Below, one piece after another: positions 59,301-64,000 of a DNA stretch of 64,000 nt. Under the pieces are notes generated by a model. It worked only from the letters and a program-made list of their open reading frames with translations. It ran no database searches and was not told where the DNA came from. The position numbers and the translations under genes were made by a program. The stretch is taken from NCBI RefSeq assembly GCF_014466955.1, contig NZ_AP023396.1, positions 5,270,001 through 5,334,000 on the forward strand. The letters run 5' to 3'. Origin of the DNA: Nocardia wallacei. Its GTDB lineage: Bacteria > Actinomycetota > Actinomycetes > Mycobacteriales > Mycobacteriaceae. Position 1 is the stretch's first letter. Each line of letters starts with the position of its first letter.

Positions 59301-59934
59301 CAAGCACAAGCTCGCCCTCGAACGCGAGATGCTGGGCCTGTACGTCTCCGGCCATCCGCTCGACGGTGTGGCGCACGTGCTCGCCGCCCAGGCCGACACT
59401 CCCATTCCGGCCATCCTCGAGGGCGATGTGAAAGACGGTGCGCAGGTCACCATCGGCGGCATCCTCGCCTCGGTCACCCGGCGCATCAACAAGAACGGAA
59501 TGCCCTGGGCCTCAGCGCAATTGGAGGACCTCACCGGTGGCATCGAAGTGCTGTTCTTCCCGCAGTCCTATTCGGTGTACGGCATGGACGTCGTCGAGGA
59601 CGCCGTGGTGCTGGTGAAGGCCCGCGTCTCGGCCCGCGACGACCGCGTCTCGCTGATCGCCAACGACCTCGCGGTGCCCGACCTGTCCTCGATCGGCGTC
59701 GAGAAGCCTCTGTCGGTCACCATCCCGACCCGCCTGTGCACCCCCGACAAGATCACCGCCCTCAAGCGCGTGCTGACCAGCCACCCCGGCACGGCCAATG
59801 TCCACATCCGCCACGTCGGCTCCCGCGAGAAGACGACCATGCTCAAGGTCGCCGACAACCTGCGGGTGTCCCCGTCGTCGGCGCTGATGGGTGATCTGAA
59901 GGCGTTGCTGGGTCCGGGGTGCCTGGCTGGCTAG
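56389..59934 (+). CDS. dnaE1: DNA polymerase III alpha subunit
   Basis: The replicative polymerase, 1181 aa. The PHP domain at the N terminus ([33 protein letters not shown]) in actinobacterial DnaE1 is a proofreading exonuclease, and its metal residues appear conserved. The palm includes [14 protein letters not shown] and [18 protein letters not shown] (catalytic Asp). [23 protein letters not shown] and the C-terminal OB fold ([15 protein letters not shown] ... [12 protein letters not shown]) follow. The start is GTG 56389. The stop codon TAG (59932-59934) is formed by the TA at which an IS630 element inserted plus the first base of that element, so the gene is intact. Confidence 0.97.
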
Positions 59935-61125
59935 TGCCGCGTCCGGGAAGGTTCGTGCAGTAACTGCCGGGGTGTCGAGTTGATCGTGCCCACCGGCAGC
60001 ACGATGCTGCCGGTGGAGGTGGTGCCCGGTGGCGCGGAAGCCGGATGTGTTCGTCAGAGCGGTGACCCCTCAGGAGGGTCGCAAGCTCGCCCAGGTCGCC
60101 CGCCGCAGTAAGCAGCCGGTGCGGATGCGGCGGGCGATCGTGGTGATGGCCTCGGCGCAGCATCAGCCGGTGCCGATGATCGCGAAGCTGATGCAGGTGT
60201 CGGAATCGTATGTGCGGCAAGTGATCCACGACTTCAACGAGAAGGGTTTCGACGCGCTCGACCCAAAATGGAGCGCGGGCAGGCCGGCGAAGACCGATCA
60301 GGCGACACGTGATCGGATCTGTTCCATTGCCCGGTGCTGCCCGCGTGATCTGGGCTGGCCGTTCTCAGTGTGGAGTCTGTCGAAACTGGTAGAGGTGTTG
60401 CGGCACAACGATATCGCCGACATCAGCCGGGAAACGCTGCGCCAGATCCTCAAAGCCGGTGGGGTGTCGTGGCAGGCCACCAAGACCTGGAAGGCCAGCA
60501 ATGACCCGGATTTCGTCGAGAAGATGAACCGGGTCCTGGACCTGTACGACAATCCTCCCGCCGACGGGCGCGTGGTCTGCATCGACGAGTTCGGGCCGCT
60601 GAATCTGCAACCCCGGCCCGGTCGCGGCTGGTTCGACCGGCGAACGCCGAGGCGGCTGCGGGCGACCTATCACCGCACCCAGGGTGTGCGGCACATGTTC
60701 GGCGCACTGGACCTGAGCACAGGACAGCTGTTCTACCGAATCCGCGACCGGAAACGCTGGACCGAGTTCCTGACCTTTCTCAAATCCCTGCGCCGCCGAT
60801 GGCCGGGCCAGAGGTTGTATCTGATCGCGGACAACTATTCGGTGCACAAGCGTCGCGAGGTTCGGCAATGGTGCGCTGCCAACGATGTGGAACTGGTGTT
60901 CGTGCCGACCTATTCGTCCTGGTTGAACCGCATCGAGTGCGAGTTCTCCGCGCTGCGGTACTTCGCTCTCAACGGCACCGACCACCGCAGCCACGGCGAA
61001 CAGGACGACGCGATCGGCACCTACATCCGCTGGCGCAACCAGCACGCCGAACCGATCCGCGACTTCGCCGTCGGATCGAAGATCCGGCACCCCGATTACC
61101 TACCGAAGGTTGCCTGACGGGGCAC
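59934..61125 (+). mobile_element. IS630-family insertion sequence
   Basis: A 1192-bp element with imperfect terminal inverted repeats (left GTGCCGCGTCCGGGAAGG, right complement GTGCCCCGTCAGGCAACC; 17 of the first 22 bases match) flanked by the duplicated TA dinucleotide (59932-59933 and 61126-61127) typical of IS630/Tc1. It holds a single complete transposase gene and may be active. Confidence 0.9.
60029..61117 (+). CDS. IS630-family transposase
   Basis: A 362-aa transposase from GTG 60029. The N-terminal helix-turn-helix pair (AIVVMASAQHQPVPMIAKLM ... SESYVRQVIHDFNEKGFDAL) binds the ends. The DDE catalytic triad: Asp in VVCIDEFGPL, Asp in LYLIADNYSVHK, Glu in SWLNRIECEFSAL. It is intact, with no frameshift. 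It ends 8 bp before the right terminal repeat tip. Confidence 0.93.
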   Translation: MARKPDVFVRAVTPQEGRKLAQVARRSKQPVRMRRAIVVMASAQHQPVPMIAKLMQVSESYVRQVIHDFNEKGFDALDPKWSAGRPAKTDQATRDRICSIARCCPRDLGWPFSVWSLSKLVEVLRHNDIADISRETLRQILKAGGVSWQATKTWKASNDPDFVEKMNRVLDLYDNPPADGRVVCIDEFGPLNLQPRPGRGWFDRRTPRRLRATYHRTQGVRHMFGALDLSTGQLFYRIRDRKRWTEFLTFLKSLRRRWPGQRLYLIADNYSVHKRREVRQWCAANDVELVFVPTYSSWLNRIECEFSALRYFALNGTDHRSHGEQDDAIGTYIRWRNQHAEPIRDFAVGSKIRHPDYLPKVA

Positions 61126-61144
61126 TAGGGAGTCGGGCCCGCGC

Positions 61145-61423
61145 TCAGGACAGGCGCTCCACGGTGGCGTCCTTCACGACATAGTGTCTGCCGATGCCGT
61201 GCTTGATCGCGCCCTCGGGACTGTAGAGATCGGCATCATCACCCGCGGCGACCAGAGTGCCGGACACTTCGAAGGTTTTGGAGACGTCGGTGTCGCTCCA
61301 TTCCCGCACGCCCTCGATGTAGACCACGGAGCGCGAGCCGCACAGGAGTACCGCGCCCGTCATCGAGTTCTGGGCGATACCGAACAGGGTCACCGGACGA
61401 TCCAGATATGCTTCGAAATTCAT
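61145..61423 (-). CDS. 92-aa protein downstream of the transglutaminase gene, candidate immunity or partner protein
   Basis: From ATG 61423 (GAGGTGGGAA upstream). Beta-rich, acidic: MNFEAYLDRPVTLFGIAQNS, TGAVLLCGSRSVVYIEGVRE, VSKTFEVSGTLVAAG. No signal peptide, no membrane segment. It follows the large gene by 35 bp on the same strand and ends 17 bp before the IS element. Family unrecognised; the position is where an immunity protein for a C-terminal toxin domain is expected, which is the only reason for that suggestion. Confidence 0.75.
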   Translation of the reverse strand: MNFEAYLDRPVTLFGIAQNSMTGAVLLCGSRSVVYIEGVREWSDTDVSKTFEVSGTLVAAGDDADLYSPEGAIKHGIGRHYVVKDATVERLS

Positions 61424-61458: not shown

Positions 61459-64000
61459 TCACGGTACAATACGTCGGAACACGAGTCCCATCACCGCACT
61501 GTCATAGTAGCCACCGTAGTTGTGGAACCGGATGTCCGTCTGCACGAATGCCTTCATCGGATCCGCCTGCCGTTGCGCCGGGTCGCGGTACTCCATATGA
61601 TTCGCATTCATCCAGGCGTCGATATCCTCCAGGTACAGACCGAAGTCGAAATTACCCATGCCGGGGCCCTTGGCACAGCATAGATCGCCCGACATATCCA
61701 CCTGCCCGGTCTCCGGATCGGGCGCGAACATATCGGGGTTCGGATCGGTCGGCCGCGCGATCGGCCAACCGGTCCGGGGCTCGTAGAGCGGATTCCCAGC
61801 GGGATCACGGACGTGCTCCTGTCCGGAATAGAAGTGCTTCGCGAAAACGACGATGTCCCACTCGGAGGGTTTGCCGCTCGGCAGGAAACGGCCCACATCG
61901 CGCAGCCCGGACAACTGCGGGTCCTCCGCGACCATCTGCAGGAATTCTTCCCTGGTCGCCGGCTGCCGCTCCAGAATATCCTCGAATGCGCGCTTGTAGC
62001 CCAGAACCATATCCTTGGTTGCCATGCTGTGCTCGAGCTGCGCCATCGCCCGCTGCTCCTGCAGCCGATTGACTTCGTCGCCGATCTTCATAAGCTCTTC
62101 GCGTGCCACCTGCCGAAGTTGGTCCACGTATTTCGTCCACTCGCGCACCACCCTTCTGGCTTCGATCACCTCGGGCACCGAAGCATCGTAGCTGTGCGCC
62201 ATGTTGATCTCGCGCAGCCTGTCCTGCGCATCGAGCAGCGACATTTTCGCGTTGTTCAAATCACTGTTCGCCCGGTCCAGCGGTACCAGCACCCGCTCGG
62301 CGTCGAACTGGGGGCGATAGGTGGCGGGATCGCTGAATACCAGGTTGTTCGGCGGGTGCAGCGGGTGACCGGCCACCGTGCTCGTGATCCCGACACACCC
62401 GAGTTCCAGCGTTGCGATCTCGCTCGGTGTCATCCTCCGGCCGATCTTGTTCTCCCACATCTCGATGACTTGGTCTTTCGAATAGGTATCGGTGCCTCGA
62501 CCCGCGAGATCCGGGACGAATTCACGATCCGACCAATCACCTTCGACTCGCAGTGCCCCGGGCTCCTCGCCCGCTGCCATCCGAGCCGCTTCCTCGTCAC
62601 CCAACCTGGTCCGTCTGGTGGGGACAGTGGGCGGGTCCTCCTCCTCTTCGCGGCGGGCCGCCTCTTCCTCCTCACGGCGGGCGGCTTCTTCCTCCTCCGC
62701 ACGACGGCGTGCCGCCTCCTCCTCGTGGCGAGCCGCTTCCTCCTCCACACGACGGCGTGCCGCCTCGTCCGTCTCGCGAGGGACGGCCGTATCGTCCACC
62801 TCGCGAGGGGCGGTCGCCTCGTCCGCATCACGGGTCGTCTCGTCCAGACCCCGACGCGCCGCTGCGGCCTCTGCTTCGCGACCGCGAGGCGCGGTGACCT
62901 CGCCTTCATCACCACGCGGCGGGGCCGTCTCGCTGTCACGGCCACGCGGCGGGGCCGTCTCGCTGTCACGGCCGCGCGGCGGAGTCCGTTCGCCGTCACG
63001 ACCGCGCGCAGTGGCCTCACGGTCTCGGGCGTGCGGCGGCGTCCTCTCGCCGTCTCGGCCGCGCGGTGGAGTCGTCTCATCCCCGCGAACGGGAACCGGT
63101 GTCTCCGTGCCGGATTCATCGCGGGGGGTGCGGGACTCTTCGTCTGTTCGACGGCCCCCGGGCTCCTCGCCTTCCTCCCGCGGCCGGGAGCGGGCTCCGT
63201 CCTCCGGACGCACCTCCGTCTCGGGCCGTGGCTCGCCCTCGGGCCGCGCCACAGTCTCCGGACGAGCCTCACCCTCCGGAACCGCCTCGTTCTCCGGACG
63301 AGCCACCGCCTCCGGACGCGCCTCACCGACTGACTCCCCTTCGTTCTCCGGACGAGCCACCGCCTCCGGACGCGCCTCACCGACCGGCTCTCCTTCGTCC
63401 TCCGGACGAGCCATATTTTCCGGGCGTGCCTCGGTCGCGGGTGCAGGTTCGTTTTCCGGGCGGGCCGCGCTGTCCGGACGCACCTCGCTTCCCGGACCGG
63501 ATTCGTTCTCGGGCCGGGCCGAGGTCTCGGGCTGGGCCTCGTCCGACGATCGCGTCGGCACGTCTTCGTCCCGGCCTCCGGGAACAGGTGTCGCCGTGTC
63601 GTTCTCCTCGCGTGAGGTGCCGGGCTCTGCTTCGGTTCGGCGACCGCCGCTGCCCTCGGCATCCTCGTTCGGCTGCGGGCGAGGCCCGTCGTCAGCGCGC
63701 GCGTCAGGCTGCGGCTCCGATTCGGGACGTGCCGCGGACTCCGGTCGCGCCTCGCTCGCCGGATCGGCTTCGTTCTCGGGCCGAACCACCGCCTCCGGAG
63801 GCGGCTCGCCCTCCGAACGCGCTGCGCCGGATGGGCTTTCCTCGTCGGACGACCGCGTCGCAGGATCGGCCGAATCGTCGTGCCGCCCGCCGGATGCACC
63901 GTCGTCCCGGCCGCCTTCCGATCCACGGCCCTCGTCCCCGGAGGGTGCGGAAGGCGGCGGCCCGTCGTCGCCATTCGGGGACGCGCCCGTCCTGTCCCCC
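61459..64000 (-). CDS. Long repetitive protein with C-terminal microbial-transglutaminase domain (5' end outside window)
   Basis: Open from the window edge to the stop at 61459 (over 840 codons visible). From the edge to about 62770 it is low complexity: ARPENE/GEARPEAVARPENE repeats, PPRGRDSETAPPRGRDS repeats, then an Arg/Glu coiled coil (EEEAARREEEEAARREEEE, 62638-62768). The last 330 residues match the streptomycete microbial transglutaminase (Pfam Transglut_prok): LELGCVGITS (nucleophile Cys, codon 62397-62395), IVVFAKHFYSGQEH, NPDMFAPDPETGQVDMSGD (Asp, 61698-61696), MGNFDFGLYL, NANHMEY (His, 61599-61597) and GGYYDSAVMGLVFRRIVP. The order Cys-Asp-His is that of the known enzyme. The N terminus, and hence the secretion route, is not visible. 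Confidence 0.85.
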   Translation of the reverse strand, partial: GDRTGASPNGDDGPPPSAPSGDEGRGSEGGRDDGASGGRHDDSADPATRSSDEESPSGAARSEGEPPPEAVVRPENEADPASEARPESAARPESEPQPDARADDGPRPQPNEDAEGSGGRRTEAEPGTSREENDTATPVPGGRDEDVPTRSSDEAQPETSARPENESGPGSEVRPDSAARPENEPAPATEARPENMARPEDEGEPVGEARPEAVARPENEGESVGEARPEAVARPENEAVPEGEARPETVARPEGEPRPETEVRPEDGARSRPREEGEEPGGRRTDEESRTPRDESGTETPVPVRGDETTPPRGRDGERTPPHARDREATARGRDGERTPPRGRDSETAPPRGRDSETAPPRGDEGEVTAPRGREAEAAAARRGLDETTRDADEATAPREVDDTAVPRETDEAARRRVEEEAARHEEEAARRRAEEEEAARREEEEAARREEEEDPPTVPTRRTRLGDEEAARMAAGEEPGALRVEGDWSDREFVPDLAGRGTDTYSKDQVIEMWENKIGRRMTPSEIATLELGCVGITSTVAGHPLHPPNNLVFSDPATYRPQFDAERVLVPLDRANSDLNNAKMSLLDAQDRLREINMAHSYDASVPEVIEARRVVREWTKYVDQLRQVAREELMKIGDEVNRLQEQRAMAQLEHSMATKDMVLGYKRAFEDILERQPATREEFLQMVAEDPQLSGLRDVGRFLPSGKPSEWDIVVFAKHFYSGQEHVRDPAGNPLYEPRTGWPIARPTDPNPDMFAPDPETGQVDMSGDLCCAKGPGMGNFDFGLYLEDIDAWMNANHMEYRDPAQRQADPMKAFVQTDIRFHNYGGYYDSAVMGLVFRRIVP

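Follow-up and report, generated by a model that had tools for sequence, protein, structure and literature searches.

A microbial transglutaminase domain behind a WXG100_2 leader in Nocardia wallacei, part of a probable duplicated toxin and immunity module

We analyzed a stretch of 64,000 nucleotides, called the window in the following, from Nocardia wallacei (assembly GCF_014466955.1, contig NZ_AP023396.1, positions 5,270,001 to 5,334,000 of the forward strand; C1:5270001-5334000 of the 7.9 Mb, two-contig genome G000). At its right end lies the 3' part (61459..64000) of a minus-strand gene for a putative toxin, named toxin 1 here. The open reading frame ends at 61459 and is open at the window edge; the sequence beyond the window completes it (full gene L004:1459-4995, start codon 995 bp past the window end) and gives a product of 1178 aa. 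Its C-terminus is formed by a microbial transglutaminase (MTG, PF09017) domain of about 374 aa (61462..62583). The domain is preceded by a linker of 498 aa which is rich in Pro, Glu and Arg (in-window part 62584..64000) and contains no Lys and only three Gln, and by an N-terminal WXG100_2 domain. Judged by this arrangement of domains, and not by a signal-peptide or propeptide prediction, toxin 1 does not have the layout of a secreted stand-alone zymogen with propeptide. A preliminary description of the window had placed the MTG domain at the end of a giant protein. This layout was confirmed, but "giant" is a loose term for 1178 aa. Of the span 61459..62480 given there, the end of the reading frame at 61459 is correct, while the frame starts at 62481 and contains seven stop codons when read from 62480.

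The assignment of the C-terminal domain is based on several comparisons. The motifs GCVGIT, AKHFYSGQ, PDPETGQVDMSGD, NFDFG and NANHM can be read in it. The domain alone (last 340 residues) matched PF09017 with an E-value of 5.7e-7 and 29.7 bits (curated cut-off 25), and it also matched the PDB entries 5m6q (KalbTG, 2.3e-14) and 1iu4 (MTG of Streptomyces mobaraensis, SmMTG, 2.3e-7). Fourteen other Nocardia domains, among them that of a neighbouring paralog (toxin 2), are alignable along its length, and the resemblance to MTG domains lies far beyond chance. In a structure model of the paralogous domain of toxin 2, the core fold is close to that of KalbTG. Two results speak against an assignment to PF09017: neither the full-length toxin 1 nor its in-window part gave a match to this profile at E<=1, and in a genome-wide search its copy reached 22.6 bits, which is under the cut-off, compared to 65.7 bits for the paralog. 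Toxin 1 is therefore a divergent member of the MTG family. The profile comparison proposed in the preliminary description was thus positive for the isolated domain, but not for the full-length protein or in the genome-wide search. The assignment stands on the isolated domain, the KalbTG match and the relatives; at the level of sequence comparison this is a genuine MTG domain, as had been claimed from the motifs.

The catalytic triad of SmMTG consists of Cys64, Asp255 and His274 (PMC6265872). A set of 25 toxin-type domains, 19 from a survey of 150 Nocardia genomes and six others, was compared with 36 distinct stand-alone loci, which remained after four identical rows of 40 had been removed. Positions were counted along the alignment of toxin 1 with the PDB sequences, which places Asp255 in NFD and His274 two residues past Trp272. 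The nucleophile Cys (Cys64, codon 62395..62397), the catalytic Asp (Asp255, 61645..61647) and Trp272 are invariant in all toxin-type domains, and the His of the NH motif (His277, 61597..61599) is conserved in 24/25. The position of the catalytic His (61606..61608) is occupied by Asn in toxin 1 and by His in toxin 2. Across the 25 domains it holds Asn (10), His (5), Ser (4), Arg (3), Gly (2) or Asp (1), in contrast to the stand-alone loci (31 from Streptomyces, 1 from Streptosporangium and 4 from others of the class), which have His274 in 36/36 cases. The preliminary description had counted Cys, Asp and His as all present, with spacings of 233 and 33 residues. This needs correction, as 233 is counted from the Cys to the VDM Asp, and 33 from there to the NH His. 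The VDM Asp, which is replaced by Asn in 4/25 toxin-type domains, is not the catalytic one; the latter lies in NFD, 250 residues past the Cys, and in KalbTG the catalytic His follows that Asp after 13 residues. Asp255 has been proposed to stand in for the usual role of His (PMC4030973), and loss of His274 therefore need not abolish activity. A long helical insert (approximately 61969..62307) separates the Cys from the KHF motif, where KalbTG has an insert of only a few residues. One Arg within it is invariant in 25/25 toxin-type domains, while the rest of the insert is variable.

The N-terminal domain, for which the preliminary description had pointed to the upstream sequence, lies beyond the window and was identified as WXG100_2 (PF25547, E-value 8.5e-18), a type VII secretion leader of the CpnT type. 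CpnT, which we take to carry this domain as well, has an immunity protein. No Pfam domain other than WXG100_2 was found in full-length toxin 1, and thus no DUF4157 leader as used by extracellular contractile injection systems (eCIS). The genome contains two genes for EccB, a component of the ESX machinery, and a YbaB-family gene and a gene for a 371-aa protein are located upstream of the paralog. Both long MTG-bearing proteins are probably exported.

The gene of toxin 2, a protein of the same design with about 1922 aa, ends about 1 kb upstream of toxin 1 and outside the window. Each of the two toxin genes is followed by a small gene of 92 or 93 codons, and the two copies are 60% identical. The copy behind toxin 1 (putative immunity gene 1, 61145..61423, minus strand, 92 aa) starts with ATG at 61423 and is intact through its last residue; the reading frame counted from the listed GTG at 61462 overlaps the toxin stop codon. 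Toxin 2 and the small genes had been overlooked in the preliminary description. The small protein is predicted to fold into an OB-like beta-barrel, and its gene probably shields the producer cell from the toxin. A frame of 102 codons (L004:5137-5442, minus strand), possibly a gene, lies between the toxin 1 gene and immunity gene 2 and has no Pfam match.

The N-terminus of the toxin is present in 85/150 Nocardia genomes (E<=1e-20), where it is combined with different C-termini. The closest one outside this genome (P0020 of G039) is 87% identical, but identity to toxin 1 is lost near residue 518 and the protein ends in a histidine-kinase-like ATPase (HATPase) domain. P0026 bears a peptidase M14 domain in this place. 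Together with P0022, P0023 and P0024, these proteins share the toxin N-terminus and have C-termini other than MTG; among the five, the C-terminal domain exceeds a Pfam cut-off in P0020 and P0026 only. A third WXG100_2-type protein of N. wallacei with about 4550 aa is encoded at L144:1612-15270 (C1, about 2.2536-2.2673 Mb), and its C-terminus, judged by eye from a motif, looks like an amidase-signature enzyme. The toxin N-terminus is also found on exceptionally long Nocardia reading frames (G124, G141, G145, G011, G002 and others), which reach 21183 codons. A precomputed PAAR label (PF05488) on P0017, which has an array of EGEPVVR repeats, is probably an artefact of the repeats.

In total, 19 MTG loci were found in 14/150 Nocardia genomes. 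The small gene is present in 15 copies in 11/150 genomes, and all 15 adjoin an MTG gene. The distances between the MTG proteins correlate with those between the small proteins (r=0.78, 16 pairs). The module is located at most 2.5 kb from dnaE in N. wallacei and likewise in N. aurantia (L025), Nocardia sp. alder85J (L037) and G102 (L142). In L030, L032 and L036 a short MTG gene and its immunity gene lie behind genes named by eye as gapdh, pgk and tpiA, which hints at a second site of conserved insertion. The short MTG genes of L027, L028 and L029 (N. jinanensis, N. carnea) belong to a subfamily that has Arg as residue 274 and VNM instead of VDM, and no recognisable immunity neighbour is present there.

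With domain identity and fold, leader, exchange of C-termini, gene pairing, parallel divergence and the invariant Cys and Asp observed, we consider it likely that the locus is a duplicated effector and immunity module of the polymorphic toxin type, with an MTG warhead, a type VII leader and a small blocking protein. The preliminary description had already suggested a polymorphic toxin with this warhead. In the sequences, the WXG-type N-terminus, the swapped C-termini and the adjacent putative immunity gene at 15 loci are in line with it. The WXG100_2 leader would pass the toxin to the type VII (ESX) secretion system, with the long low-complexity linker joining it to the MTG-fold domain. Using its Cys-Asp pair, the domain would act on the glutamine side chains in target proteins, and would cross-link or deamidate proteins in a competitor cell. 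In the producer and its kin, the OB-like protein of 92-93 aa would bind and block the toxin, a task that is carried out by the propeptide in Streptomyces MTG. More tentatively, the Nocardia toxins may be natural MTGs which rely on the Cys-Asp pair after losing the third residue of the triad (in 20/25 it is Asn, Ser, Arg, Gly or Asp), and their control may have moved from a propeptide in cis to the immunity protein in trans, plugging the active-site groove.

Several results weigh against the proposed effector and immunity module. The WXG100_2 leader is present in only 6/19 MTG genes; the remaining 13 have short open frames of 408-577 aa, and all eight short genes that were scanned lack WXG100_2. 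The MTG warhead, usually with the immunity gene, is therefore also found separate from the leader. A neighbouring small gene is missing at 4/19 MTG genes (G009, G036, G037 and one of two in G070). The 371-aa upstream protein resembles WXG100 proteins, but has no Pfam match, and its relative in L038 reaches 20.5 bits at a cut-off of 27.3. All Foldseek matches of the immunity protein model were weaker than 1e-3. The third triad residue is Asn in toxin 1. EAT14, an eCIS toxin of Chitinophaga rupis with a PF09017 domain, is lethal to E. coli and yeast, but was no longer toxic when its Cys, Asp or His (H410A) was mutated (PMC11297309).

Four other explanations, which are not mutually exclusive, were weighed against these data. 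The toxin and immunity system may be as proposed, but with deamidation or proteolysis as its chemistry instead of cross-linking. This is possible, if the less probable option, because residue 274 varies (N, S, R, G, D, H) and the chemistry may have drifted; for the MTG-like EAT14 its authors could not exclude a protease (PMC11297309). On the other hand, Cys64, Asp255 and Trp272 are invariant in 25/25 domains and the core fold is closely like that of KalbTG. It is unlikely that toxin 1 is a degenerating copy with weak catalysis and only the His274-bearing toxin 2 is active. Toxin 1 has Asn where toxin 2 kept His, and its Pfam match is weaker, but the same Asn is found in P0015, P0016 and L031 (N. 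brevicatena) together with intact Cys and Asp, the His is missing in 20/25 family members, and immunity gene 1 is intact.

About equally unlikely is an effector directed at eukaryotic hosts or predators, in which the small protein would merely guard the cytoplasm of the producer. The killing of yeast by EAT14 (PMC11297309) and the four MTG genes without a partner gene are in favour of such a target, but a dedicated partner that diverges together with the toxin at 15 loci and the patchy spread (14/150 genomes) fit competition between bacteria better. We regard it as very improbable that toxin 1 is no toxin but a surface protein which glues cells together or attaches itself by a covalent anchor, the small protein being its chaperone. 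Its linker with 0 Lys and 3 Gln in 498 residues could hardly be cross-linked to itself, as would suit such a protein. Low Lys content is not specific, however: 11 Lys occur in the linker of P0019 and 27 in that of P0025, and P0020, a relative without MTG, likewise has no Lys in its stretch 306-550. In addition, the C-terminus is exchanged for other domains, such as the peptidase M14 of P0026.

Compared to known enzymes, the Nocardia domains are like KalbTG of Kutzneria albida (5m6q), SmMTG (1iu4, 3iu0) and PF09017 in core fold, Cys64 and Asp255, and toxin 1 shares the motif regions KHF/SGQ, VDMS, NFDYG and NH with KalbTG and SmMTG. The latter are stand-alone enzymes that kept His274, whereas the Nocardia domain contains the long helical insert and forms the end of a WXG100_2 protein, and a neighbouring gene may replace the propeptide. 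EAT14 is likewise a delivered toxin that ends in a PF09017 domain, and it is a direct precedent for a toxin domain of the MTG family. It differs by its DUF4157/LysM leader, its eCIS delivery and the requirement for all three of Cys, Asp and His, and an immunity gene is not named in the available toxin section (PMC11297309). In view of EAT14, the statement of the preliminary description that no such system is described was too strong with regard to the warhead. CpnT-type type VII toxins likewise combine an N-terminal secretion domain with a C-terminal warhead, but the latter is an NAD+ glycohydrolase (PMC8092274) instead of an MTG. Papain-like enzymes also serve as warheads in the Tox-TGase and inactive transglutaminase domains of polymorphic toxins, which are of the AvrPphE/RtxA type or inactive N-terminal domains; PF09017 is not named in the available part of that work (PMC3482391). 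Neither a type VII MTG toxin nor its immunity family was found described in the open-access literature, which lacks the majority of subscription papers and preprints.

MTG is widely used for food cross-linking and protein labelling (PMC5612097). The locus suggests a role as effector, most likely antibacterial, for one branch of this family, and it supplies a candidate protein inhibitor of MTG as well as 19 natural copies with varied active sites in one genus. WXG100_2 proteins are common throughout Nocardia (85/150 genomes), and a cross-linking or deamidating warhead would join those they are known to carry. If the Cys-Asp reading is true, the importance of His274 and the relation between zymogen and toxin/antidote control could be addressed within one family.

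Between dnaE and immunity gene 1, and outside the toxin system, a transposase gene of the IS630 family was identified (60029..61117, plus strand). The corresponding insertion sequence (IS) element spans 59931-61130, and its termini, judged by eye, are CTAGTGCC and GGCACTAG. It starts at the stop codon of dnaE and stops just before immunity gene 1, and apparently neither gene was damaged.
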